From contig VGSH01000020.1 of NCBI GenBank assembly GCA_016875025.1, positions 1 through 34,616 on the forward strand: a stretch of DNA of 34,616 nt. Direction: 5' to 3'. The notes below the pieces were generated by a model, which made no database searches, had not been told where the DNA came from, and saw only the letters and a list, made by a program, of their open reading frames with translations. Shown here piece by piece: positions 18,900-33,248 of the stretch. This DNA comes from Deltaproteobacteria bacterium. GTDB taxonomy: Bacteria > Desulfobacterota > WTBG01 > CAIYCZ01 > CAIRTM01. The position numbers and the translations under genes were made by a program. Numbering within the stretch: the stretch's first letter is position 1; each line of letters starts with the position of its first letter.

Positions 18900-19499
18900 A
18901 TGGCTGTGAACAAGGCGCCGGAACAGCGGCGCGAAGAGATATTTGAGGCTGCGCTGAGCTGTTTTAACAGCAATGGCTATCATCAGACAACCATTGATGA
19001 GATCGCCGCACAGGCCGGCATTTCAAAAGGCGGCATTTACCATCATTTCAGCTCCAAAAAAGAGCTTGTGATTGAGCTGTTCAGGAACCGTGTTAACCGG
19101 TATTTTGAATACCTGACCGAACAGGTTCGCGGCGCTGCCGACGCTGCCCAGGGCTTGAACGTGCTGGTTGAAAAATCAGTTGAAATTTTCCAGGAACACG
19201 AGCCGGTTTTGCGTTTTTGCCTCGATTTTGTTGCCATGAGTTCACGGGAGCCCGAATTTCGTGCGGAAGTAGCGGCCATGTATCGCCACAGGGTGGCAAC
19301 GGTTTCCGCGCTGATACAGGAGGGAATAAGAACGGGTATCTTTAAGCAGGTTGATTCCGAAGGTGTCGGGCGCGCCCTGTATTTTTTGTCGATGGGATTT
19401 TTCCTGAGTTATTTCACCGTTCCGCTGGATTTTGATCCGCAGGAACAGCACAGGCTTAATTTGAAAACCATTATGGACGGGCTTATTAAGAACCAGTAA
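18900..19499 (+). CDS. TetR/AcrR family transcriptional regulator
   Basis: RREEIFEAALSCFNSNGYHQTTIDEIAAQAGISKGGIYHHFSSKKELVIELF. Confidence 0.95.
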   Translation: MAVNKAPEQRREEIFEAALSCFNSNGYHQTTIDEIAAQAGISKGGIYHHFSSKKELVIELFRNRVNRYFEYLTEQVRGAADAAQGLNVLVEKSVEIFQEHEPVLRFCLDFVAMSSREPEFRAEVAAMYRHRVATVSALIQEGIRTGIFKQVDSEGVGRALYFLSMGFFLSYFTVPLDFDPQEQHRLNLKTIMDGLIKNQ

Positions 19500-19510
19500 A
19501 GGAGTATGCG

Positions 19511-20317
19511 ATGAAGAAGAGAGCACGTAGTGTGGTGATGACTGTTGTGCTGTTTGTTGCCGTTTTCGGGTGCGGACGCTTTGCCGCGAAGGACGTGCAG
19601 CCAAAGGCCGAGGCGGTACCGAAGGCTCAGGCGATCATTGCGGCTGCGGAAGTCGACAGCGGGCATCCCGAGATCGAACCGGGACTGAGTTGCAATGACT
19701 GCCATGAAATCAAGCTTGACGCCAATACCACTGCCACGAAGGTCTATCTGTTTGGTCAGTCTCCCGGCCACAGCGAAGGCGAGGGCGTGATGTCCAAAGA
19801 GCGCGTGTGGGCTGAGATTGAAAAAGCCATCGGCGGACTGAAGCACGATTCAAAAACGTTCATCCTGGCAACAAGCCTCAACAATGTGCCGCTCTCGACC
19901 ACCTGCGAGTGGACGCTTGACCCGAAGACCGGGAAGCTGTACGGCTTTCACGAGGCCGGCACCGAGAAACTGCGCCATATCGAGGCCAACCCCAAAGTGA
20001 GCATGAACTATCACAAGGAGTTCGATAGCGAGACCTTCAAAGATTTCCTGTGCGTTCAGGTGCGCGGCACCGCGCGGCTGATCAACGGTGATGACCCTGA
20101 TTTCGAGCGCATCATGATCGAGCTGCTGCCCTATGAATTCGGCGCCAGGGTGCCGGCCGATGCAACGCCTGAGCAGCGCGAAGCCCGTTTGAAAGCCTTC
20201 AGACAGGGCGTGAAAAAAGCCTTTCTCATCAGTGAGATCACCCCGGAGCAGATCACGATCGCCAACCAGAAGTTCCGCGCTGAGGGTATGCGGGTCTACC
20301 AGCGCTGGACGCGGTAA
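19511..20317 (+). CDS. exported single-CxxCH (c-type heme motif) protein fused to pyridoxamine 5'-phosphate oxidase-like split-barrel domain
   Basis: N-terminal signal/possible lipoprotein (VVLFVAVFGCG), LSCNDCHEIK, then KTFILATSLNNVPLSTTCEWTLDPKTGKLYGFHEAGTEKLRHIEANPKVSMNYH. Confidence 0.75.
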   Translation: MKKRARSVVMTVVLFVAVFGCGRFAAKDVQPKAEAVPKAQAIIAAAEVDSGHPEIEPGLSCNDCHEIKLDANTTATKVYLFGQSPGHSEGEGVMSKERVWAEIEKAIGGLKHDSKTFILATSLNNVPLSTTCEWTLDPKTGKLYGFHEAGTEKLRHIEANPKVSMNYHKEFDSETFKDFLCVQVRGTARLINGDDPDFERIMIELLPYEFGARVPADATPEQREARLKAFRQGVKKAFLISEITPEQITIANQKFRAEGMRVYQRWTR

Positions 20318-20370
20318 GGGCGCATAGTGCGCCGGTATGCATGCGGGTTAGATGGCGTATTATTGTTGGA

Positions 20371-20487
20371 GTCGTGAAAAGTCTGAAGATGCTAATTTCA
20401 GTCATTCCGGCGCAGGCCGGAATCCAGGCATTTTAAACACCTACAAAGATACTGGACACCGGTCTTCACCGGTGTGACGACTTTTTA
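20371..20487. repeat. compound inverted repeat (GTCATTCCGGCGCAGGCCGGAATCCAG ... CTGGACACCGGTCTTCACCGGTGTGACGAC)
   Basis: Two hairpins (CCGGCGCAGGCCGG, CACCGGTCTTCACCGGTG) within outer GTCGTGAAAAGTC / GACGACTTTTT arms. Confidence 0.65.
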
Positions 20488-20554
20488 TAACTGTATTATA
20501 ATTGAATTTCTACGCGCAGTTGATCTGATGCGGCTTCTGAACAAGGAGATAATT

Positions 20555-21358
20555 ATGAAAAATGTCGTTATTACAGGCAGTTCAAAAGGCATCGGCCTTG
20601 GCCTTGCGCATCATTTTCTCAAGCGCGGGCATCGGGTAATGCTCAGCAGCTTTGCCCGTCAAGAGATGGAGCAGGAGCTCGATAAGGCCCGCCAATTGTA
20701 CGGCGCGGATAAGGTAGCGGCCTGCGCCTGCGATGTTACCGATGTGGAGCAGGTGCGCGGCCTGTGGAAGGCAGCTGTGGACCGCTTCGGAACGGTCGAC
20801 ATCTGGGTGAACAACGCCGGCATTGCCAACACAACGCGGCTGCTGTGGGAGCTTGAAGCCCGTGAAATCCCCCGGGTGGTCGGCACCAATCTGACCGGTG
20901 TTATCTTTGGTACGCAGGTCGCCCTGCAGGGCATGCTGGCCCAGGGCTCGGGACAGGTGTATAACTCCGAAGGTTTCGGCAGCGATGATATGGTGGTGAA
21001 GGGCCTGAGCGTGTACGGGGCAACCAAGCGCGCGGTGCGCTATTTCAGCGAAGCCCTTGCGCAGGAAGTCGAGGGCCAGCCGGTGCAGGTCGGCACGATC
21101 AGCCCCGGCATCGTGCTGACGGATTTTCTGCTGGATGACATGCGAAAAATGGACCCCGAGCAGCTTGAAACCACCAAGGCTGTCTATAATGCGCTTGCCG
21201 ATGACGTTGATACGGTAACGAACTTTCTTGTCGATGAACTGCTGGTTAACCGCGAAAACGGCCGGCGTATTATATGGATGACGGAAGAAAAGGCCAATCA
21301 GTATTTCGCCGATGAGAGCCGGTTGGCGCGAGATTTATTTTCGCAGTACGGCCTGTAG
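20555..21358 (+). CDS. SDR family oxidoreductase, chlorophyll b reductase (NYC1/NOL)-like; start reassigned to ATG 20555
   Basis: VVITGSSKGIGLGLAHHFLKRGH, NNAG, VYNSEGFGSDD...YGATK, SPGIVLTDFLL, tandem paralogue of the next gene. Confidence 0.88.
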   Translation: MKNVVITGSSKGIGLGLAHHFLKRGHRVMLSSFARQEMEQELDKARQLYGADKVAACACDVTDVEQVRGLWKAAVDRFGTVDIWVNNAGIANTTRLLWELEAREIPRVVGTNLTGVIFGTQVALQGMLAQGSGQVYNSEGFGSDDMVVKGLSVYGATKRAVRYFSEALAQEVEGQPVQVGTISPGIVLTDFLLDDMRKMDPEQLETTKAVYNALADDVDTVTNFLVDELLVNRENGRRIIWMTEEKANQYFADESRLARDLFSQYGL

Positions 21359-21361
21359 GAG

Positions 21362-21517
21362 CAGGATGCCTTAAAACACATATCTGCGGCGTTTTGCGTA
21401 TCATTCGTTACGCCCCGCTGTGCGGGGCAGGGCGGCGTACGGTAGGGGCACGGCATGCCGTGCCCCTACAATGCATAAGATCGCACGCCTTGCATCTTTA
21501 CATTTTTGAACAGCCTG
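21362..21517. repeat. palindromic repeat family, copy A (contains 28-bp perfect palindrome)
   Basis: Left arm CAGGATGCCTTAAAACACATATCTGCGGCGTT and right arm GCACGCCTTGCATC...TTTTTGAACAGCCTG align with reverse complement of copy C. Confidence 0.7.
21442..21469. repeat. perfect 28-bp palindrome GTAGGGGCACGGCATGCCGTGCCCCTAC (core of copy A)
   Basis: Read directly; identical to 22437-22464. Confidence 0.95.
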
Positions 21518-21568
21518 AACAGGATGAATAGTACATATCTGGTTATTGTATAAAAGGAGACAAAGCGC

Positions 21569-22372
21569 ATGAGGGTTGTGGTTATTACCGGAAGTACAAA
21601 GGGCATCGGGCATGGCCTGGCCCGTGAATTTCTGAAGCGCGGCTGCCGGGTTGTCATAAGCTCGCGCAGCAGCGCTGCCGTCGAAACGGTTTGCGCTGAG
21701 CTGGTAGCGCAGTTTGGAAGCGGTCTGATTACAGGCCTTTCGTGCGATATAACAGATGCCGGACAGGTGCAGGCTTTATGGGACCATGCCTGCAAAATGT
21801 TTGAACGGGTTGATATCTGGATCAATAATGCCGGCATCAGCCATGCCCGCAAAATGCTCTGGGAGCTTGATCCCGCAGAAATCAGCCGGGTAGTCGCTAC
21901 GAACGTGACCGGGATGATGCACGGCTGCCGGGTGGCAGTTGCGGGCATGCTGGCGCAGGGGTCAGGAGCAGTGTATAATGTCGAAGGCCACGGCAGCAAT
22001 GATATGATCCTGCCCGGCATGAGCGTGTACGGCGCCAGCAAGCGCGCGGTGCGCTATTTTACGCAGGCACTGGTGCAGGAAACAGAGGGCAGCGGGGTCC
22101 GCATCGGTGCTGTCAGCCCCGGCATGGTTGTTACGGAACTGCTTATGACGGACTGGCAGGAAATGGAACCTGAACAGCGCGAGCAGACCCGGGTTATTTT
22201 TAATATTCTGGCCGACACGGTCGAGACGGTCACGCCCTGGCTGGTTGATGGAATGCTGAACGATCAGGCCTCGGGCACCTGGATTGAATGGATGAACGAG
22301 GAAAAGGCGCAGCAGCGCTTTGAGGATGAAGCCTTTCTCAGCCGTGACCTGTTAGGCGATTTTGGCCTGTAG
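21569..22372 (+). CDS. SDR family oxidoreductase, chlorophyll b reductase (NYC1/NOL)-like, second tandem copy
   Basis: VVVITGSTKGIGHGLAREFLKRGC, VYNVEGHGSND...YGASK, SPGMVVTELLM, FNILADTVETVTPWLV. Confidence 0.9.
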   Translation: MRVVVITGSTKGIGHGLAREFLKRGCRVVISSRSSAAVETVCAELVAQFGSGLITGLSCDITDAGQVQALWDHACKMFERVDIWINNAGISHARKMLWELDPAEISRVVATNVTGMMHGCRVAVAGMLAQGSGAVYNVEGHGSNDMILPGMSVYGASKRAVRYFTQALVQETEGSGVRIGAVSPGMVVTELLMTDWQEMEPEQREQTRVIFNILADTVETVTPWLVDGMLNDQASGTWIEWMNEEKAQQRFEDEAFLSRDLLGDFGL

Positions 22373-23621: not shown

Positions 23622-24902
23622 TTAGTTTACTTTTTGCAGATACGAAGTTGTAAACATATCAGCAGTCACGGAACTATCAGAGATTTTCGGCTGGGTGATT
23701 TTTTGTTGATTCGACAAACCACCATGCGTTCGCTGAACATCAAAGTAGTGCGATCCGACAATGACCGGTTTCATCACGCCAGTCATTGTTTTGAGCGGCT
23801 GGGTGCTATTGAAGAACATCTTCCAGAAGCGGCCCTGCTGGTCGTAAATTTCAGTAAACATGATGTAATACGTCTCGGGGTCAAGGTACCAGACGCGTTT
23901 ACTGTAGAGGTAGTTGGGGTCTTTGCTGATCGCATCAACAATCAGCAGGTTGCAGCGTTCAAAGGTCATGTCGTTGGACAGAACCTGTCCGGGAATGCGT
24001 GAAATGCGGCCGACACCGTCATGCCGGTCGGTCAGCAGGTCTTTTTTGCCCTTGTAGGTGTACGTATTACGGGTAAGCTGTCCGTCCCACAGGTACTCAT
24101 CGTCATAGATGATGTCCGAGCCGTCGATGGCATCAGTGCGCTGGGCGGTGTTGACGCGACGAATGCGGCGGAACTGGCTGTACCACAGGTAGGAGTCATC
24201 TTCCTTTTTCTGGTCGATGTAGCGCAGCGTGTACATGCGCGTGTTCAAAAACTCCGCCGGCATGTACATGTGCAGGAACATGCCCCGGCGGTATCCGCGC
24301 GGGTTTTTGTCCACGGCCGGCTTGGGGTCGAGCTCTGTGCGGTTAATGAAATAATACTCCCAGTATTCCTGGTCCGCCATGCGCTCGCTTCTGTTCTTGG
24401 GGTTGACGTTCGGCGAATATTTGCGGTAGTTGTGGGTGTCGCCGCGGTTTTGCATCTCAAAGTTCCAGGCCATTTTCGTGCCGTCTTCGCCCGGGTTCAT
24501 GAACAGACGCCCTGCAAGTGAAGCCAGGTTGTCGATCGAGCCGTCTGCGGCCAGGTTGGCTTTGCCTGCGTTGGCCTGGCTGGCTGCGATGAAGTTGGGT
24601 GTTTCAGCAACAAACTCATACGGTCTGATCGTAAAGAAAAAGCCCTCGGGCGGCGCGCCCCATTCCTGATGGTTTTTAATAACGTTCACAAACGCTTCGG
24701 GCAGGAACTGGGCAACCTGATCGACATTCGTGTGGTCAACCTTTTTCCCGGCCCAGGTTTTTTCCCATTCGCGCACTTTTGCCAGCTCTTCATCCGAGTA
24801 GGCCTTCTGCATTTCCTGCGCTGCCGCCGGCACCATCATGAGTAATAACGCTGCGCAGGCGCATACCACGATGGTTCTGATTCCGATTGTTTTCATGCTC
24901 AT
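23622..24902 (-). CDS. DUF1329 family exported protein (LolA/outer-membrane lipoprotein-sorting-like)
   Basis: Signal peptide; NRGDTHNYRKYSPNVNPKNRSERMADQEYWEYYFINRTELDPK; RVWYLDPETYYIMFTEIYDQQGRFWKMF. Confidence 0.82.
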   Translation of the reverse strand: MSMKTIGIRTIVVCACAALLLMMVPAAAQEMQKAYSDEELAKVREWEKTWAGKKVDHTNVDQVAQFLPEAFVNVIKNHQEWGAPPEGFFFTIRPYEFVAETPNFIAASQANAGKANLAADGSIDNLASLAGRLFMNPGEDGTKMAWNFEMQNRGDTHNYRKYSPNVNPKNRSERMADQEYWEYYFINRTELDPKPAVDKNPRGYRRGMFLHMYMPAEFLNTRMYTLRYIDQKKEDDSYLWYSQFRRIRRVNTAQRTDAIDGSDIIYDDEYLWDGQLTRNTYTYKGKKDLLTDRHDGVGRISRIPGQVLSNDMTFERCNLLIVDAISKDPNYLYSKRVWYLDPETYYIMFTEIYDQQGRFWKMFFNSTQPLKTMTGVMKPVIVGSHYFDVQRTHGGLSNQQKITQPKISDSSVTADMFTTSYLQKVN

Positions 24903-24934: not shown

Positions 24935-26530
24935 TTAAAATTCATACCGCAACCGCAGTATTAGACTGTCCAGCTTGTCATATGCGTGCGAAAGGCCGTT
25001 CTCGGAAGCGTATTTATGTTTTGCGCCGCCATAGCATTTCAGGCCTATATCGAACCGGAAGCCACTGAAGGGCCCTGAATCGGGAAACATGTAGGTGAAT
25101 GACGGCACGGCCATCCATTTCCCGATGTGCGGGTAGTAGTTGCCGAGGAAGGTGAATGTCCAGGTGGCATTGAACATCTGCTGCATGACAAAAAGGGTGA
25201 ATGAATCCATGGTGGGGCTGCCCGGCTTGTAAAAGCGGTCGGCAAGGCACAGGTCCCTGTCGTAGTTTAAAACACGTTCATTGAAATAGGTAAAGGATGT
25301 CTGCAGCTGCTGGCCCTTGCCGACGGCCTGCGTCCACCAGGGGATGGTCCAGTACCAGCTGCCCTGCATGGCGACGCCGAGTATGTTGCGGCGGGTGGCG
25401 TCATACAGGCCGTTTGTATTGCCATTCAGGCCCTTGACCAGGGGACTGCCGATCTCCATGAACCACTCAAGGCGCCAGACCGTATCTTTCAATTTTGTCG
25501 TGAAGGTCTGTGCGGTTCCGCCTATGGTCTGAAGGCGTTTGTATTTGTATACGGAGTAGTCGGGCTGTTTGGGAAGCGGGTTGAATACGTCAAAGTACAG
25601 GTTGGCGTGTTGTAGTGCGCGAGCGACGTCAACGCTTGTGGGTCCGTCCGAGAGGGCGTTCCAATAAAGCAGGGTCCAGTCGATATTATAGGTAAAACCC
25701 TGCACCCGGCCGCCGAACTCGTAGTTCGAAAGAGCCCAGCCGGGCTCGTCATCCCGCCATTTTTCCTGCATCCATGAATAATAGCCCCGGTCTCTGATGG
25801 GTGCAAATGCATCAGGCCGTTGTTTGAAGAATGAAGGTCCCCAGTGTGTGCCTTCATAGGGCAGCCTCAGCGCTTTAAAATCACCTGGATTAAAGATAAG
25901 CTCAAACAGCAAATTGCCGGGCAGCTGCGACTGGTAAAAGGTCCTGATCAGCCACAGGCCGCGTTTAACTTCTTCCCAGGTGTCAACGCCCGGAACACCC
26001 CAGCGCAGGTCAAGCGGGTTGACCACGTCGGCGACGCGGTTCATGTCGAGCTGGCCCCAGATCACGATCTGCTTGCCGGCCCGGACCTGCCAGGGGCCGT
26101 TTGAGTAATCAAGGTACATTTCCGCAATGACATCTTCGATTTTTTGCGGATGCGTATAATTGTGCCGGTCCTCGTTATAGAGGCTGCGGCGATTATTGTC
26201 ATCATAGTTCTGAGTGGCCTGATACCAGGCGCGAAAGCTGCTGAAAACGCGAAACGCGCTCTGCTGATCTTCCTTGACGGTGTAGAGTATTTCAAGAAGC
26301 GTGGAAAAGTTCGAGAAGTCTAAGTGGGTGTCATGGTTATCTCCCGGGCTCCCCCCGTCGGAGAATTCGCGGTCGTATCCATTCAGACGGTAGTAGCTTG
26401 TGTTCTTGACAAAACCGCTGAGAATGAGCTTTCCGTCCATGAGCGCGATTTCAGCCCGTGATGTTGACGGCACGGCGAGCAGCAGCGCCAGAACAATCAG
26501 CGTGAGCGAAAAAAACAGTCGTTTTTCCAT
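24935..26530 (-). CDS. DUF1302 family, predicted outer-membrane beta-barrel; start reassigned to MEKRLFF
   Basis: Signal peptide; VRAGKQIVIWGQLDMNRVADVVNPLDLRWG; beta-rich, terminal aromatic LRYEF. Confidence 0.82.
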   Translation of the reverse strand: MEKRLFFSLTLIVLALLLAVPSTSRAEIALMDGKLILSGFVKNTSYYRLNGYDREFSDGGSPGDNHDTHLDFSNFSTLLEILYTVKEDQQSAFRVFSSFRAWYQATQNYDDNNRRSLYNEDRHNYTHPQKIEDVIAEMYLDYSNGPWQVRAGKQIVIWGQLDMNRVADVVNPLDLRWGVPGVDTWEEVKRGLWLIRTFYQSQLPGNLLFELIFNPGDFKALRLPYEGTHWGPSFFKQRPDAFAPIRDRGYYSWMQEKWRDDEPGWALSNYEFGGRVQGFTYNIDWTLLYWNALSDGPTSVDVARALQHANLYFDVFNPLPKQPDYSVYKYKRLQTIGGTAQTFTTKLKDTVWRLEWFMEIGSPLVKGLNGNTNGLYDATRRNILGVAMQGSWYWTIPWWTQAVGKGQQLQTSFTYFNERVLNYDRDLCLADRFYKPGSPTMDSFTLFVMQQMFNATWTFTFLGNYYPHIGKWMAVPSFTYMFPDSGPFSGFRFDIGLKCYGGAKHKYASENGLSHAYDKLDSLILRLRYEF

Positions 26531-27013
26531 ACCCCTCTCCTTTTTGCTGTCTTTGTTATTGGTTGAGCGTGTGCGCGCTGGGCCCTTGTGTAACTGCATC
26601 GCAATGATACGTCTCTTTGAGTTCATGCTCTGCCCGGTGAAACTGTGAGTACAGCGTCTGCATTGCAATGGTTTAAATATATCAAAAAATTAACATACAC
26701 GTTCATGAAATACAAGCATTAAAAATAAAAAATAGTAAAAAAAATAAGGGATATATTTACCTGCGTAAATTTAGATCACCGGCTGTTTCAGAAGCACGTA
26801 GTGAATAAATAAATATCCGTCCAATATTACACTATGTCAGCGGCGTTTTCTGTACAGCACGTTTGGTGCTGGCATCGGACCCTATTCCCCGTCCGGTATG
26901 TACCCGTGGCTGTCAAAGCTTACTGTCGGCAGCGGGTTGTTAGTCTGCCCGGTACGGGGCGACAGGCACTGCTGTGCATGGTCAGGACTGCGGTGCGTCA
27001 GAGTCAATGAATG

Positions 27014-27083: not shown

Positions 27084-29543
27084 TTATTTACAGTGCCTGA
27101 TCAGGAATTTGGGCTTAAATGTTGCCAGCAGTGCCGGCAGTATAATCAGAGAACCCAGCATGTTGAACATCAGGATAATGGCAAGCAGAAATCCCATCAG
27201 GGCCTGAAACATCATCTTGGAAAGAAACCAGAATATAATGCCGCAGATAAGGGTCGTAGCAATATAGATGATGGCTTTGCCGGTTGTACCCATGGCCTTG
27301 ACGATGGCCTGGTTGAGATTGCCGCAGGCGATGCATTCTTCCTCTGCGCGGCTGAGCAGATAAATGCCATAGTCAACGCCCAGGCCGATTCCCACCGCGG
27401 AAACCGGCAGTGTGGCTGTTGTCAACGCAAGGGTTTGCTTGTTAAAGGCCATGAAGGCAAACGCGAGCGTATTGGCAAGAATCAGGGGCAGGGTTACCAT
27501 GAAGCCCGCCATCCAGTTTTTGAAAATGATAACGCACAGTAAGAATACGGTAATGAGGGCTATCACGAACGTCCACAGGTTGTACAGTGTCAGGCATTCA
27601 TTGATGGCAGCCTGCACGCCAACCGCGCCGCCCGCAAGCCGGTAATAGACCTCTTCGGCCCCTTCGATTTTTGGTTTGGCGGGAATCGGGGCTTCTTTTT
27701 CACGGAAAAAACCGTCGACCCAGTAGACGAAACGGTCAAAGCCCTCGCGCTTGACATCCGTCTCTCGCAGGACGAACCGGGATTCCTCGCGAAGATATTT
27801 ATAGATGCGTTTGAAAATGGTATCGATGGTTGCGGTCGTTTTATCGCGCGCGTAGATGATGACATTCATGGTCTGTTCTTCGATATCAACGTATTGATCA
27901 AACTGCCCGGGGGCGGAACCGTAAATAACAGATTTATAGAGCTGGCGCAGTTGATTGTCTACATTGGGCATGAACGACCAGTTCGGATCCGTGTCGCGCA
28001 CGCCGCGGTTTCGGCCCGGTATCTGGCCCAGGATGGAAAAAGCCATGATGACCCGCATGTTTTCTGTCTTGCGCATATAGTTGGTGAAGTTTTGTATATC
28101 GCGCAGCACTTCGGGATGGCCGACCGCGTCCGCCTTGTCGCCTTCAACCACCACATAGAGCGGGCTCAAGAGCGGCATGGCGAATGTTATTCTGAATGCA
28201 TCGGTGTTGTAGCGGTGCCAGGGCCACAGGATCTCGGAACCCGGCAGAGCGCTGCCGATGGTGATGTTTTTGCTGTAATTGGCTGACCAGGCGAGCAGAA
28301 TGGCGGCCACCACCAGCACGACGGTTCTGCCGCCGGGGCTCACAATCCGGCGGCCGCAGAAGGCAATCAGATGGTCAAGCCAGCCTTCGCCCTCTTTTGC
28401 GACCCGCAGGGGCATGTAGGACAAAAGGATCGGCACGAGTATCATGGCTACCGCAACCGTTGCGAACGCCCAGAAAGCGCAGGACAGGGTAATTTTCTGC
28501 AAAATCGGAATCGGTGTCAGTGCGATGACCATGATGCCGGCTGCGTCGGTGATAATGCCGGCAAAGCCGGGTATAAACAGGTGTTCAATGACGTTTTTGC
28601 AGGCCTTCTTTCCGTCCTGATGCAGGTAGGCCTCCTCGGTGTATCGCTTGTAGACCTGCAGGGAATGCGAGGCCGCCATGGCGGCGATCAGGAACGGGAA
28701 CACAAGCACCAGCGGATCGAGGTTGATCCGCATCAGGCCCAGGAACCCAAGGCCGAAGATCGCGCTGACAGCAGCCGCCAGTATCGGCAGAACCATGCCG
28801 CGGATAGAGCGGAAGAATATATAGAGCATGATCATCATGGCGATAACTGTAATGCCAAGGATCTTGAGCACGTCCATTACGTAGTTATCGACATATCCCA
28901 GGTGCATGGGTTCGCCGGCGATGTTGACGATGATGTTCTCATCCTCGAACTCATTGCGCAGAGCAATAAAGTATTTGAACAGTTCGCGGTAATCAATCTG
29001 CTCCTGGAAGTAATCGACCATGATGAGGGTTTTTTTGCTGTCGAGCGAAACGAGTACGGGATAGGCCATCGGGCTGCCGTACACGGTCTGGCGCAGCTCA
29101 TGCAGCCCCTCAGGCGTGGTCGGCACGTCGGGGAACATGATATTGTCCATGCTCATGCCCTGGGTTGTTATCTTGATGTCGCGCACGCTGCGGCTTGCAA
29201 GCGACATGATCTTGTTGCGGTCGACACCCGGCGACGTATACAGCTTTTCAGTAATGGCCTTGACCTTCGTGAGGGTTTCGACGTTAAAGATGTCCTTGTA
29301 TTTGCCGCCGTCCTCGGGATCACGCACCTGCAGCATGATCAGCACCTGGTTGGAGCCGCCGAATTTCGACTCGATCTGCTCGTGCAGCTTGGTGTAGGCG
29401 TGGTTGCGGGGCAGAAGGTCGGGGTAGATCGTTTTGACCGTCAGGTGCGCAATGGCCTGGTAGAGAAAGAAGATCGTAATGCCGATCATGACAAGGAGAA
29501 TCGGCAGCCTTTTTTCGATAATGAAATCTGCGAAACGTTTCAT
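27084..29543 (-). CDS. RND superfamily / MMPL-type transporter
   Basis: 819 aa, two sets of multi-TM segments; VGIGLGVDYGIYLLSRAEEE. Confidence 0.92.
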   Translation of the reverse strand: MKRFADFIIEKRLPILLVMIGITIFFLYQAIAHLTVKTIYPDLLPRNHAYTKLHEQIESKFGGSNQVLIMLQVRDPEDGGKYKDIFNVETLTKVKAITEKLYTSPGVDRNKIMSLASRSVRDIKITTQGMSMDNIMFPDVPTTPEGLHELRQTVYGSPMAYPVLVSLDSKKTLIMVDYFQEQIDYRELFKYFIALRNEFEDENIIVNIAGEPMHLGYVDNYVMDVLKILGITVIAMMIMLYIFFRSIRGMVLPILAAAVSAIFGLGFLGLMRINLDPLVLVFPFLIAAMAASHSLQVYKRYTEEAYLHQDGKKACKNVIEHLFIPGFAGIITDAAGIMVIALTPIPILQKITLSCAFWAFATVAVAMILVPILLSYMPLRVAKEGEGWLDHLIAFCGRRIVSPGGRTVVLVVAAILLAWSANYSKNITIGSALPGSEILWPWHRYNTDAFRITFAMPLLSPLYVVVEGDKADAVGHPEVLRDIQNFTNYMRKTENMRVIMAFSILGQIPGRNRGVRDTDPNWSFMPNVDNQLRQLYKSVIYGSAPGQFDQYVDIEEQTMNVIIYARDKTTATIDTIFKRIYKYLREESRFVLRETDVKREGFDRFVYWVDGFFREKEAPIPAKPKIEGAEEVYYRLAGGAVGVQAAINECLTLYNLWTFVIALITVFLLCVIIFKNWMAGFMVTLPLILANTLAFAFMAFNKQTLALTTATLPVSAVGIGLGVDYGIYLLSRAEEECIACGNLNQAIVKAMGTTGKAIIYIATTLICGIIFWFLSKMMFQALMGFLLAIILMFNMLGSLIILPALLATFKPKFLIRHCK

Positions 29544-29582: not shown

Positions 29583-30701
29583 TTATTGACGCGCAAACGG
29601 TCCCCAGCTCGGCATGCCGCGAAATTCCAGCGCTTTGGGCATCTCAAAGAATTTCATGTCGTAGGAAAGGCCCGAGAGGAACTGCCAGGTTTTGCCGCCG
29701 TCGTTCGTGTTGACGACCAGGCCTGCCTGACCCACGACCCAGCCCTTATCCGGGCTGCTGAAGGCAATATCCTTGTAATACTGTTTTGATTTAATGACAT
29801 CTTCCTGCAGGCGCCACGTTTCGCCGTTGTCCTCTGACAGCAGGTAGGCGCCCTTGTCGCCCACGGCCCGGCCGATGCCGTTTTTGATCTCAAGCGTGTA
29901 CAGGGGAAACGCGCTTTCGGTCTGCATGGCCTGCCAGCTTTGTCCGGCGTCGGTTGTGCGCAGTATGGTGGCATCAAGCCCGCAGACAAAGGCGGTGCCG
30001 GCGTCGATGGCCTGCACGCAGAACAGGGCCGGACGCGGGTTTGAGAATTCGTCTTCGATCGTTGCGCGTTCAAAGTCCTTCGGGATCTGCTGGTTCCAGG
30101 TCTGGCCGCCGTCGCTGGTGTACAGGATCAGGCCGGCTTCGCCGACGATCCAGCCGTGCAGGGCATCGGCCATGTCGATATTGCTCAGTACCCTGTCTTC
30201 GACTTCAGTCAGCCGCTGCCAGGTTGTGCCGCCGTCAGTGGTGCGCAGTACGGTATTCCATTCGCCTGCAGCCCAGCCGTTTTTTGCGTCAATGAATGAA
30301 ATGCTGAACAGATGATACTCAGAGCCGGTCTCCTGGCGCTGCCAGGTTGTGCCGCCGTCGCCTGTGTGCAGAATGGTTCCATACAGGCCCGATATCCAGC
30401 CCGTTTTTGTGTCAAGGAACTGACCGTCAGTCAGCAGGGTTTCATTTTCCGCAGCCGGGTTGTCCTGGCGTTGCCAGGTTGTGCCCCCGTCTCCCGAGTG
30501 GAAAATTTTACCGGTGGTGTCGGCTATCCAGATGTTGTCATCGTCGACTGCCTGCACAACATGGACACTGTCGGTCGTAATGACCTTGATGTCCGGAGCG
30601 CTAAACGTGCTTTTCCTGTCTTTGCAGCCGACGGATGCTCCCAGCAGCGCTACCATGAGAGCAGCAGTGGCTGTCTGTACTAACGGCTTCCACATTGACA
30701 T
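29583..30701 (-). CDS. YCF48-related BNR/beta-propeller lipoprotein
   Basis: Lipobox-like ASVGC; repeated (S/T)xDGGxTWxxQ and GW(I/A)xG units. Confidence 0.88.
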   Translation of the reverse strand: MSMWKPLVQTATAALMVALLGASVGCKDRKSTFSAPDIKVITTDSVHVVQAVDDDNIWIADTTGKIFHSGDGGTTWQRQDNPAAENETLLTDGQFLDTKTGWISGLYGTILHTGDGGTTWQRQETGSEYHLFSISFIDAKNGWAAGEWNTVLRTTDGGTTWQRLTEVEDRVLSNIDMADALHGWIVGEAGLILYTSDGGQTWNQQIPKDFERATIEDEFSNPRPALFCVQAIDAGTAFVCGLDATILRTTDAGQSWQAMQTESAFPLYTLEIKNGIGRAVGDKGAYLLSEDNGETWRLQEDVIKSKQYYKDIAFSSPDKGWVVGQAGLVVNTNDGGKTWQFLSGLSYDMKFFEMPKALEFRGMPSWGPFARQ

Positions 30702-30955: not shown

Positions 30956-32317
30956 GTGAAAAATTTGTATGATCTTGTCGTCGTTGGAGCCGGCCCCGCC
31001 GGTCTGGTCGCCGCCAAAACCGCTGCGGAAAACGGCCTGTCGGTTGCCGTGCTTGAGCGCAAGGAAAATATTCATGAAATTCTGCGCATGTGCGGTCAGA
31101 TGATCGTTTCGCTGTCGGGCAAATACATGGGCGAGCGGGTTGTATATAATGAAAACGCAAAGCTTTTGAGTTTTCCCCATAACGGATTTACCCTGAAATA
31201 TGACGGCCCTGCCAGGGATTTCTATTCATGGCGGATATACTCTCCGAATGAGGAAACCGTCGTGTTCGGCGACTACGATGCCAACCGTGCCAAGGGCAAA
31301 GCCGGCCGCGCGAGCGCGGTCTATGACAAAAGCTGGCTTTTGCGCAGTCTGGTTGAGGAGTGCCGCGGACTGGGCGTTGATATTTTCGGCGGTGAGAATG
31401 TCATAGATGTCAGAAAAAAAAGCGATGCAGTGGAAGTGCATACCGCATCCGGCAAGCATTTCAAAGGCGTTTTTGTTGTTGCGGCTGACGGGCGCCAGTC
31501 GCGTGTGGCGCGCGTGCTGGGCATGAACAAAGACCGCGGATTCTACGGCTCGGTTACATCGGTCGGCTATGAGATGACCAATCTCAATCTGGCCCAGCCC
31601 GAGGCCCTGCATCAGCCTCTGCTGGAAAGCGGGGATCCGCCCATGATGGGTTTCATTGTTCCCCGCGCCTGGGACCATGAGGGCGATCCCGTCTGGCTTA
31701 CCATGATCACCAATGTTGATCCGAATGCCGATCATAAAGCACTGCTTGACAATTTTATCGAAAAAAGCCGCTATGCGTCCTGGTTCAAGGGCGCGAAAAA
31801 AATCCGCACATGCGGCTGCGCCGGCAATATGTACTCGCCGATCGTGTATCCGTTCCGGGACAATGTTCTGTTTGCCGGTGATGCGGGCTGGTGTCAGGAA
31901 GCCGAGATGACCGGGGCGGCCATGTGCGGTGCGCGGGCCGGCAGCGCGATTGTCGAGGCCATGCTTGAAGGCAAGCACAATGCTGAAGGCGTACAGAGCT
32001 ATCTTAACTGGTGGAAAACAGACCATATTGATAAGCTGGATCACAATGTGTTTCTGCGAAATCTGTACATGCCGATCCTGTGCAAGGACGATGAAATTGA
32101 CTATATTTTCAAAAACATCACCGAAACGCTTAAGACCGTGCTTGACCCTTACGAAGTACCCGAGAATCTCGGTAAAGCATTGATCAAAATTATTCCCCGC
32201 ATTCAGGCTGAGCGGCCGGATCTTTTGAAAAAAATGACCGGCTTCAGCAATTTGCCGCCTGATGTTGTGTTGAAAAAGACCATTCGTGCAGGCTTTGACT
32301 GCCGGTTTACCACCTGA
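30956..32317 (+). CDS. FAD-dependent oxidoreductase, geranylgeranyl-reductase/PHBH-fold superfamily
   Basis: YDLVVVGAGPAGLVAAKTAAENGLSVAVLERK; VVAADGRQSRVAR; NVLFAGDAGWCQEAEMTGAAMCGARAGSA. Confidence 0.85.
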   Translation: MKNLYDLVVVGAGPAGLVAAKTAAENGLSVAVLERKENIHEILRMCGQMIVSLSGKYMGERVVYNENAKLLSFPHNGFTLKYDGPARDFYSWRIYSPNEETVVFGDYDANRAKGKAGRASAVYDKSWLLRSLVEECRGLGVDIFGGENVIDVRKKSDAVEVHTASGKHFKGVFVVAADGRQSRVARVLGMNKDRGFYGSVTSVGYEMTNLNLAQPEALHQPLLESGDPPMMGFIVPRAWDHEGDPVWLTMITNVDPNADHKALLDNFIEKSRYASWFKGAKKIRTCGCAGNMYSPIVYPFRDNVLFAGDAGWCQEAEMTGAAMCGARAGSAIVEAMLEGKHNAEGVQSYLNWWKTDHIDKLDHNVFLRNLYMPILCKDDEIDYIFKNITETLKTVLDPYEVPENLGKALIKIIPRIQAERPDLLKKMTGFSNLPPDVVLKKTIRAGFDCRFTT

Positions 32318-32459
32318 GCGTTGCGCTCCGGGCGGTTCTGATCATATGAGGCGTTCTTTCATGTGCCCCGGCCAGGAAGAGCGCCTTTTATGTTTGTATG
32401 TGTATGCTGTCGTGAAAGTTTTTGGGTTTTGTTAAAAATTTTACAGGGAGGATGCTGTC

Positions 32460-33248
32460 ATGATCTTGAACGCACTTGGAATAATTCTGGCTTTGCTGGT
32501 ACTTGTGATTGTGGTTTTTGTCGTCAAAGCGCGCCTGGCCGGCAATGCCCAGTATAGCAGGTATGCGCAGTATACCATGCAGACCCTGGCAAAATCCTAC
32601 GCGCTTGTACCCTTTGAGGTCAAGCCGGAATATCGTAAAATTCACCCCGCCAAAATGCTCAAGCTGTTTAAAATCCTGGTCAGCAGCTATACCACCGACC
32701 GGCTTGCGCGGGTCAACTCGCTTGACGCCACCATGTTTGTGTTCATGAAGATGTACACCCTGATGATCCGGCCCGATTACAGGTATAACCTCCCGGTGCT
32801 GTCGGTTGATTTTATTTTTATCGGCAAAAAAAGGGTGTTCGTAATCGAGGTAATCGATCCGGCAAAAATCGATGATGAAAATAAACGCATCCACTACGAC
32901 AGGATGCGCGTGTTCCAGGATACGGTCAGGCAGTACGAACAGTCTCCAACCAAGGACTGGTATAAGGATTTTCTGACCGATTTCAGTATTCATATCAAGG
33001 CCGATGCAACCAAGGATGCCGAGCTGTTCAAGATGTATCAGACATTTCTTGAGGCCTATCTTGATATGGCCAAACATGCGCAGCCCCTGTCGCCTGAACT
33101 GCGCGACAAAGTCAAAACAGGCTTTGAAACGTATGTTGATACACTGCTGGGCAAGGGCGGTCCTGCTGTTGATGTGTTTAAAAAATTTCTGGGACCCGAC
33201 GGGCAGAAGGAATACGTGCGCACGGTCATGTTCGGGCTTGACGACTGA
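32460..33248 (+). CDS. membrane-anchored protein resembling ferredoxin-dependent bilin reductase (HY2/FDBR) family
   Basis: N-terminal TM helix; YNLPVLSVDFIFIGKKRVFVIEVIDPA and C-terminal FKKFLGPDGQKEYVRTVMFGL resemble FDBR signatures by eye. Confidence 0.6.
   Translation: MILNALGIILALLVLVIVVFVVKARLAGNAQYSRYAQYTMQTLAKSYALVPFEVKPEYRKIHPAKMLKLFKILVSSYTTDRLARVNSLDATMFVFMKMYTLMIRPDYRYNLPVLSVDFIFIGKKRVFVIEVIDPAKIDDENKRIHYDRMRVFQDTVRQYEQSPTKDWYKDFLTDFSIHIKADATKDAELFKMYQTFLEAYLDMAKHAQPLSPELRDKVKTGFETYVDTLLGKGGPAVDVFKKFLGPDGQKEYVRTVMFGLDD

Follow-up and report, generated by a model that had tools for sequence, protein, structure and literature searches.

Whether a protein of the ferredoxin-dependent bilin reductase (FDBR) family can be tethered to a membrane, and what it would then reduce in a non-photosynthetic bacterium, is the question raised by one open reading frame in the window (the whole stretch of 34,616 nucleotides analysed here). 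A first-pass annotation, made from sequence alone, had described its product as bilin-reductase-like, with a transmembrane helix at residues ca. 4-22, a YNLPVLSVDF segment carrying a conserved Asp117, a following strand and a C-terminal end resembling that of FDBRs. The gene and its parts are as follows.

32445..32451, + strand: ribosome-binding site AGGGAGG, 8 bases 5' of the ATG, read from the sequence
32460..33248, + strand: membrane-anchored FDBR-fold protein P0001, 262 aa (ORF; Pfam PF05996 E 7.6e-16; AlphaFold2 pLDDT 95.8; Foldseek matches to FDBRs; 80% identical ortholog L001; dN/dS ca. 0.11)
32460..32525, + strand: transmembrane helix predicted by hydropathy, residues 1-22, then KAR (helix 2-46 in the structure model; present in all 14 anchored loci)
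32574..33233, + strand: FDBR domain, residues 39-258 (Pfam PF05996, profile positions 4-227 of 228)

The location given for the ORF held (ATG at 32460, stop at 33248, 262 aa), and the gene is under purifying selection. Its nearest relative, L001, shows 77% nucleotide and 80% protein identity and has the same neighbours; 114 of the 180 differences between the two fall at codon position 3, with a dN/dS of ca. 0.11. The proposed helix held as well. Residues 1-22 include a hydrophobic stretch with a mean Kyte-Doolittle value of 3.17 over 19 residues, and an N-terminal hydrophobic helix of varying sequence recurs at 14/14 related loci examined. The anchor is thus a real and conserved feature of the subfamily (14 loci, one clade with 99/99 support).

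The protein is a member of the FDBR family. Fe_bilin_red (PF05996) matched with 58.9 bits, 27.9 above the cut-off of 31; no other Pfam family matched, and RCC_reductase (PF06405) was not listed at E <= 1. The NCBIfam models for PebA, PebB and PcyA also matched, with scores under their equivalog cut-offs, as one would expect if the relationship is distant. Using a profile of the anchored relatives, GtPEBB (2.5e-13), PcyA, PebA and HY2 were found in the PDB. Structure prediction with AlphaFold2, based on a 37-sequence alignment, gave a model with pLDDT 95.8 and pTM 0.91 for which Foldseek returned 45 PDB matches at E <= 0.001, every one a chain of an FDBR or of red chlorophyll catabolite reductase (RCCR). 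The best of these were PcyA 2g18 (1.1e-12) and GtPEBB 6qx6 (1.3e-12, TM 0.76), and the predicted alpha/beta/alpha sandwich agrees with the fold of PcyA, PebA, GtPEBB and HY2. The first-pass annotation would have been refuted by the lack of a significant FDBR/RCCR profile match, or by a model without the sandwich fold and the conserved Asp117, and neither was the case. YNLPVLSVDF with Asp117, the next strand and the C-terminal end are all present and align with known FDBRs. The label bilin-reductase-like therefore held, while action on bilins has not been shown.

Aligned with characterized enzymes, four sites of the domain can be assigned.

32757..32759, + strand: Thr100, in the column of PcyA His88 (Asn in PebA/PebB), without variation among the anchored sequences
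32808..32810, + strand: Asp117, aligned with catalytic GtPEBB Asp99 / PebA Asp84 / PcyA Asp105, unchanged throughout the anchored clade (counted over 12 anchored sequences)
32991..32993, + strand: His178, conserved without exception in the anchored clade and found only there
33156..33161, + strand: Gly233-Gly234, at the site where GtPEBB has its second catalytic Asp, Asp219

The catalytic role of the Asp99/Asp84/Asp105 position is known from earlier work (PMC6755814). The PcyA signature of Glu76 and His88 is not met, with Leu88 and Thr100 in the respective columns. Also not met is the second Asp of A-ring-reducing FDBRs of the PebB/PebS type, whose role was described for GtPEBB Asp219 (PMC6755814). 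All 12 anchored sequences aligned carry Gly-Gly at this site (Gly234 in the Asp column), whereas Asp is found in every non-anchored sequence aligned, be it a soluble paralogue, PebA, PebB or a phage relative. For PebA the Asp99 equivalent is sufficient and the second Asp dispensable (PMC6755814), and a single-Asp FDBR could therefore still carry out a two-electron reduction. It is possible, as an inference, that His178 replaces the lost Asp as an acid/base. The missing second Asp had gone unseen in the first-pass annotation, as had eight further FDBR-like genes, the absence of a canonical heme oxygenase, and a gene context pointing to flavodoxin and the handling of apolar compounds.

The source genome (estimated 100% complete) contains nine PF05996 matches above the cut-off, and 13/17 genomes of its class carry 6-17 FDBR-like genes each. 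Their total of 145 includes a few below the Pfam cut-off. In a phylum sample of 390 genomes, 16 of them from the class, above-cut-off matches were obtained for 12 genomes, all 12 in the source class, and one other genome gave a 19-bit match. Within this sample the family is confined to the class. The anchored form was found at 14 loci in 11/17 class genomes, several of which are incomplete metagenome assemblies, and at none outside the class. No anchored relatives were found in phages and IMG/VR, and the search of plasmids yielded only distant cyanobacterial PebA, taken as references. Maximum-likelihood analysis placed the 12 anchored sequences in one clade (99/99) whose sister is a soluble clade from the same genomes (98/98); PebA, PebB and phage sequences group together, apart from both. 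Cyanobacterial PcyA, pre-PcyA and Schekmanbacteria sequences were not part of the tree and deeper placement is thus not fixed.

Some FDBR-like genes of the class depart from the usual form. In the source genome itself (L042:8049-9032, G000:C2), a 2[4Fe-4S] ferredoxin is fused to an FDBR domain directly 5' of an aldehyde:ferredoxin oxidoreductase gene. Other class genomes likewise have FDBR matches in frames of comparable length (331-341 aa), known from these matches alone. At L053:1522-2262 and L040:9780-10526, anchored FDBR genes are directly followed on the 3' side by FDBR-like genes that have diverged strongly (19 bits and no Pfam match) and might encode partner subunits. Another FDBR-like gene, L055 (G004:C171:1700-2368), contains four in-frame stops (3 TGA, 1 TAA), and one at L045:5859-6464 has an in-frame TAA inside its match.

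The pathway that would supply and use a bilin was not detected. Searches of the 17 class genomes for canonical heme oxygenase (PF01126) gave 0/17, with three control genomes positive. The class also returned no match for the phycobilisome globin (PF00502), the PHY domain of phytochromes or the photosynthetic reaction centre (PF00124), again with positive control genomes. The heme oxygenase result covers PF01126 only and does not extend to the HugZ, IsdG and ChuW types. Related proteins of heterotrophic bacteria, the pre-PcyA lineages, typically have clusters (pre-1/pre-3) of a heme oxygenase, a phycobiliprotein-like globin, an Fe-S protein and two V4R proteins (PMC10151467). Of such clusters, no PF01126 or PF00502 match exists in the class, and inspection by eye of the fetched neighbourhoods recognised no heme oxygenase, globin, Fe-S protein or V4R pair (V4R without a profile search).

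The genes preceding the anchored FDBR in the window are of a different kind.

18900..22372, + strand: TetR regulator, exported split-barrel protein with CxxCH, two SDRs (at L040, the other anchored FDBR of this genome is preceded by these genes in identical order)
23622..24902, - strand: DUF1329 protein, AmeB-like (PF07044, 126 bits)
24935..26596, - strand: DUF1302 outer-membrane protein, AmeA-like (PF06980; 5' end uncertain, ORF opens at 26668)
27084..29543, - strand: HAE3/MMPL RND transporter, AmeD-like (PF03176; TIGR00921 HAE3, 123 bits, below cut-off)
29583..30701, - strand: YCF48/BNR-like protein, AmeC-like (PF14870, 136 bits)
30956..32317, + strand: geranylgeranyl-reductase (GGR)-like FAD protein, 453 aa, probable operon partner (TIGR02032, 81 bits, below the cut-off of 158.8; adjoins anchored FDBRs at 8/14 loci)

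A complete AmeABCD-type gene set (DUF1302, DUF1329, YCF48/COG4447-like and HAE3 RND; four-gene composition from PMC6394551) lies beside the FDBR operon on the opposite strand. Resemblance to AmeABCD rests on domain composition, and an apolar substrate of the cassette is a possibility drawn by analogy only. By inference, the set at 18900-22372 may form one functional unit with the FDBR. Within this set, the protein at window positions 19511-20317 is an exported PNPOx-like split-barrel protein with a CxxCH heme-c motif, and relatives are present at 1-10 per genome in 14/17 class genomes. We considered this protein as a link to heme degradation and rejected it, with relatives within 1.5 kb of only 2/145 FDBR genes (0.8 expected) and 0/14 anchored ones.

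Across the class, 11/14 anchored loci have a flavodoxin-like gene within 1.5 kb (ca. 0.05 expected), in most cases at a distance of 43-93 bases. A GGR-like FAD gene is found near 8/14 (0.2 expected) and frequently stands opposite an AmeABCD-like cassette for the efflux of apolar terpenoids. Because the expected counts presuppose genes placed uniformly, and because related genomes do not count as independent, the neighbour counts represent conserved synteny and not independent events. The flavodoxin-like partner carries a Flavodoxin_5 domain. Its structure model is of moderate quality (pLDDT 68), with a front half matching flavodoxins and a C-terminal half without assignment. In the window and in its closest relative, G001, the operon contains no flavodoxin gene and homologues are encoded elsewhere in the genome; the donor would therefore act in trans. 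The other anchored FDBR operon of the source genome comprises TetR, the exported CxxCH split-barrel protein, two SDRs, an FMN reductase, a UbiD-like decarboxylase and a flavodoxin-like protein. The GGR-like family is expanded to 11-25 members per genome where FDBRs occur.

Further observations concern these gene families. Flavodoxin-like proteins of ca. 360 aa with a signal peptide (L051:7625-8716, L048:8430-9554 and relatives) have no sequence relative that we could find in the PDB. A tandem array of six GGR-like FAD genes is situated beside YCF48-like, DUF1329 and DUF1302 genes at L081:2944-11975. At L039:5649-7601, an OYE-family enzyme is encoded two genes 5' of a soluble FDBR paralogue. 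Its best model was 'bilirubin reductase, long form', at 384 bits compared with a cut-off of 750. This score was level with that for BaiCD, also far below its cut-off, and the assignment as bilirubin reductase was rejected as not specific.

Based on the charges flanking the helix (N +1, C +3), the FDBR domain of the window protein is predicted to be cytosolic. The opposite charge bias was observed in 8/9 orthologues adjoining a signal-peptide flavodoxin and in 0/4 without such a partner (Fisher p 0.007). This value is uncorrected for relatedness and suggestive only; a periplasmic domain in relatives with exported flavodoxins remains a possibility resting on the charge pattern.

The best-supported mechanism, with activity inferred, is that of an FDBR-like, membrane-held reductase fed by flavodoxin or ferredoxin and using Asp117 as proton donor. 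A small one-electron carrier (the flavodoxin-like protein, usually encoded adjacent, or a ferredoxin) would deliver electrons singly to a substrate sitting in the sandwich pocket of the FDBR domain. Asp117 would donate protons, and a conjugated double bond would thereby be reduced by two electrons. Held at the inner membrane by its N-terminal helix, the domain would have access to a hydrophobic substrate, and an isoprenoid-like or other apolar unsaturated compound may in this way be taken up, reduced or detoxified. Support for the donor comes from the flavodoxin-like neighbours and the ferredoxin-fused paralogue of the same genome. Biliverdin from an own heme oxygenase is probably not the substrate because no canonical heme oxygenase was found, and with the second Asp also missing and the gene context as described, a non-bilin substrate is likely, although inferred and unproven. 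That this substrate is apolar or isoprenoid-like is no more than possible, being guessed from neighbours of the GGR-like and Ame-like kinds. Taken as a whole, our best reading, of a membrane reductase that receives electrons from flavodoxin or ferredoxin and acts on an apolar unsaturated compound, could as readily prove wrong as right. Activity, donor, substrate class and topology are all inferred. To our knowledge no characterized FDBR acts on anything but a bilin, and RCCR acts on a chlorophyll-derived linear tetrapyrrole. Known FDBR/RCCR substrates are thus all linear tetrapyrroles, so that homology makes a tetrapyrrole the default, against our preferred explanation.

The most serious alternative is a true bilin reductase, which would receive its bilin from non-canonical heme opening or from the environment and for which the anchor would only provide a position near uptake or export. 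This is possible, though rather unlikely. Homology and fold are strongly those of FDBRs, and Asp117 together with Thr100 resembles the pre-3 pre-PcyA enzymes, which keep Asp105, carry Thr at the His88 position and reduce biliverdin (PMC10151467). The exported split-barrel protein with CxxCH is encoded upstream, and some split-barrel proteins (HugZ type) open heme. On the other hand, PF01126 was found in 0/17 genomes, no bilin-binding globin or PHY domain was detected, the heme oxygenase, Fe-S protein, V4R proteins and globin of pre-1/pre-3 clusters were not seen here, and the protein lacks the second Asp on which A-ring reduction depends. In our reading, which is without activity data, action on bilins is less likely than on another substrate.

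Other explanations carry less weight. RCCR-like reduction of chlorophyll- or pheophorbide-derived linear tetrapyrroles from sinking algae could be considered because the fold also matches RCCR (3agb, E 3.4e-8), one paralogue weakly matches PF06405 (17.6 bits, below cut-off) and sister lineages come from freshwater metagenomes (L001 record title only). It is very unlikely, however, as profile and structure are nearer to FDBRs and RCCR comes after oxygen-dependent ring opening (the ring-opening enzyme was outside this search). A non-catalytic, FDBR-derived binder presenting an apolar compound or tetrapyrrole to RND export or to the FAD enzyme would fit the exchange of the second catalytic Asp for Gly-Gly across the whole clade as well as the membrane anchor and transport genes alongside. 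We regard this as unlikely given that Asp117, Thr100 and His178 are invariant and that close linkage to flavodoxin-like genes fits a redox enzyme. A spurious FDBR resemblance, for which only the pairwise identity of 13-17% to solved FDBRs would speak, can be all but excluded, since profile, profile-to-PDB and structure searches independently concur and the catalytic columns align.

FDBR homologues in heterotrophs are already known (PMC10151467). In the literature searched we found no transmembrane-anchored FDBR, no ferredoxin-FDBR fusion and no report of an FDBR-like radiation reaching 17 genes per genome where canonical heme oxygenase is lacking; literature on FDBRs plus anaerobes, flavodoxin or membrane anchoring yielded nothing comparable. 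The linear tetrapyrroles used by characterized FDBRs and RCCRs stem from oxygen-dependent ring opening, and on this basis Rockwell et al. (PMC10151467) proposed that FDBRs arose after oxygenic photosynthesis. A class with 6-17 FDBR-like genes per genome, no canonical heme oxygenase, a ferredoxin fusion and an anchored branch beside a flavodoxin gene makes this proposal testable. It also offers a set of radical-type reductases still to be explored, whose fold is defined and whose electron donors are obvious. Our inference, suggested by the data, is that the FDBR fold came to serve other kinds of electron-transfer chemistry, probably something other than the usual formation of bilins. A bolder reading, against which we lean slightly, is that a non-phototrophic class made the FDBR fold a general single-electron reductase family acting on substrates other than tetrapyrroles. 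Flavodoxins or a fused ferredoxin would be the donors, and the anchored branch would be coupled to GGR-like enzymes and apolar efflux. If true, the fold would not be bound to oxygen-dependent tetrapyrrole metabolism, with possible consequences for its age and oxygen dependence (an oxygen-free life of these bacteria is not established).

Compared with PcyA, PebA, PebB, HY2 and PebS, the anchored protein has the same fold, a whole-domain profile match and an equivalent of the Asp at position 117, and it shares the C-terminal G-x-x-x-x-x-x-Y-x-x-x-x-x-F end of FDBRs. Unlike these enzymes, it carries an N-terminal transmembrane anchor and Gly-Gly in place of the second Asp, and relative to PcyA, Thr replaces His88 and Leu replaces Glu76. 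No canonical heme oxygenase or biliprotein was detected in its genome, and flavodoxin, GGR-like and efflux genes are linked to the reductase. As FDBR-family proteins of non-photosynthetic bacteria, the pre-PcyA lineages pre-1, pre-2 and pre-3 of heterotrophs (PMC10151467) are comparable, and pre-3 also combines Asp105 with Thr at the His88 position. The proteins described here differ from them in being anchored and in having many paralogues per genome without a nearby heme oxygenase, V4R pair or bilin-binding globin. RCCR (PF06405) and the Schekmanbacteria sequences intermediate between FDBR and RCCR, which fall with the RCCR outgroup (PMC10151467), share the overall fold, and a similarly deep position outside the known FDBRs is possible (no direct comparison), with the anchored protein clearly nearer to FDBR than to RCCR models. 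AmeABCD makes Castellaniella defragrans tolerant of apolar monoterpenes (PMC6394551). The cassette next to the FDBR operon matches it in all four kinds of genes (composition compared, not sequences), but unlike AmeABCD it is arranged divergently to an operon of a GGR-like and an FDBR-like gene.
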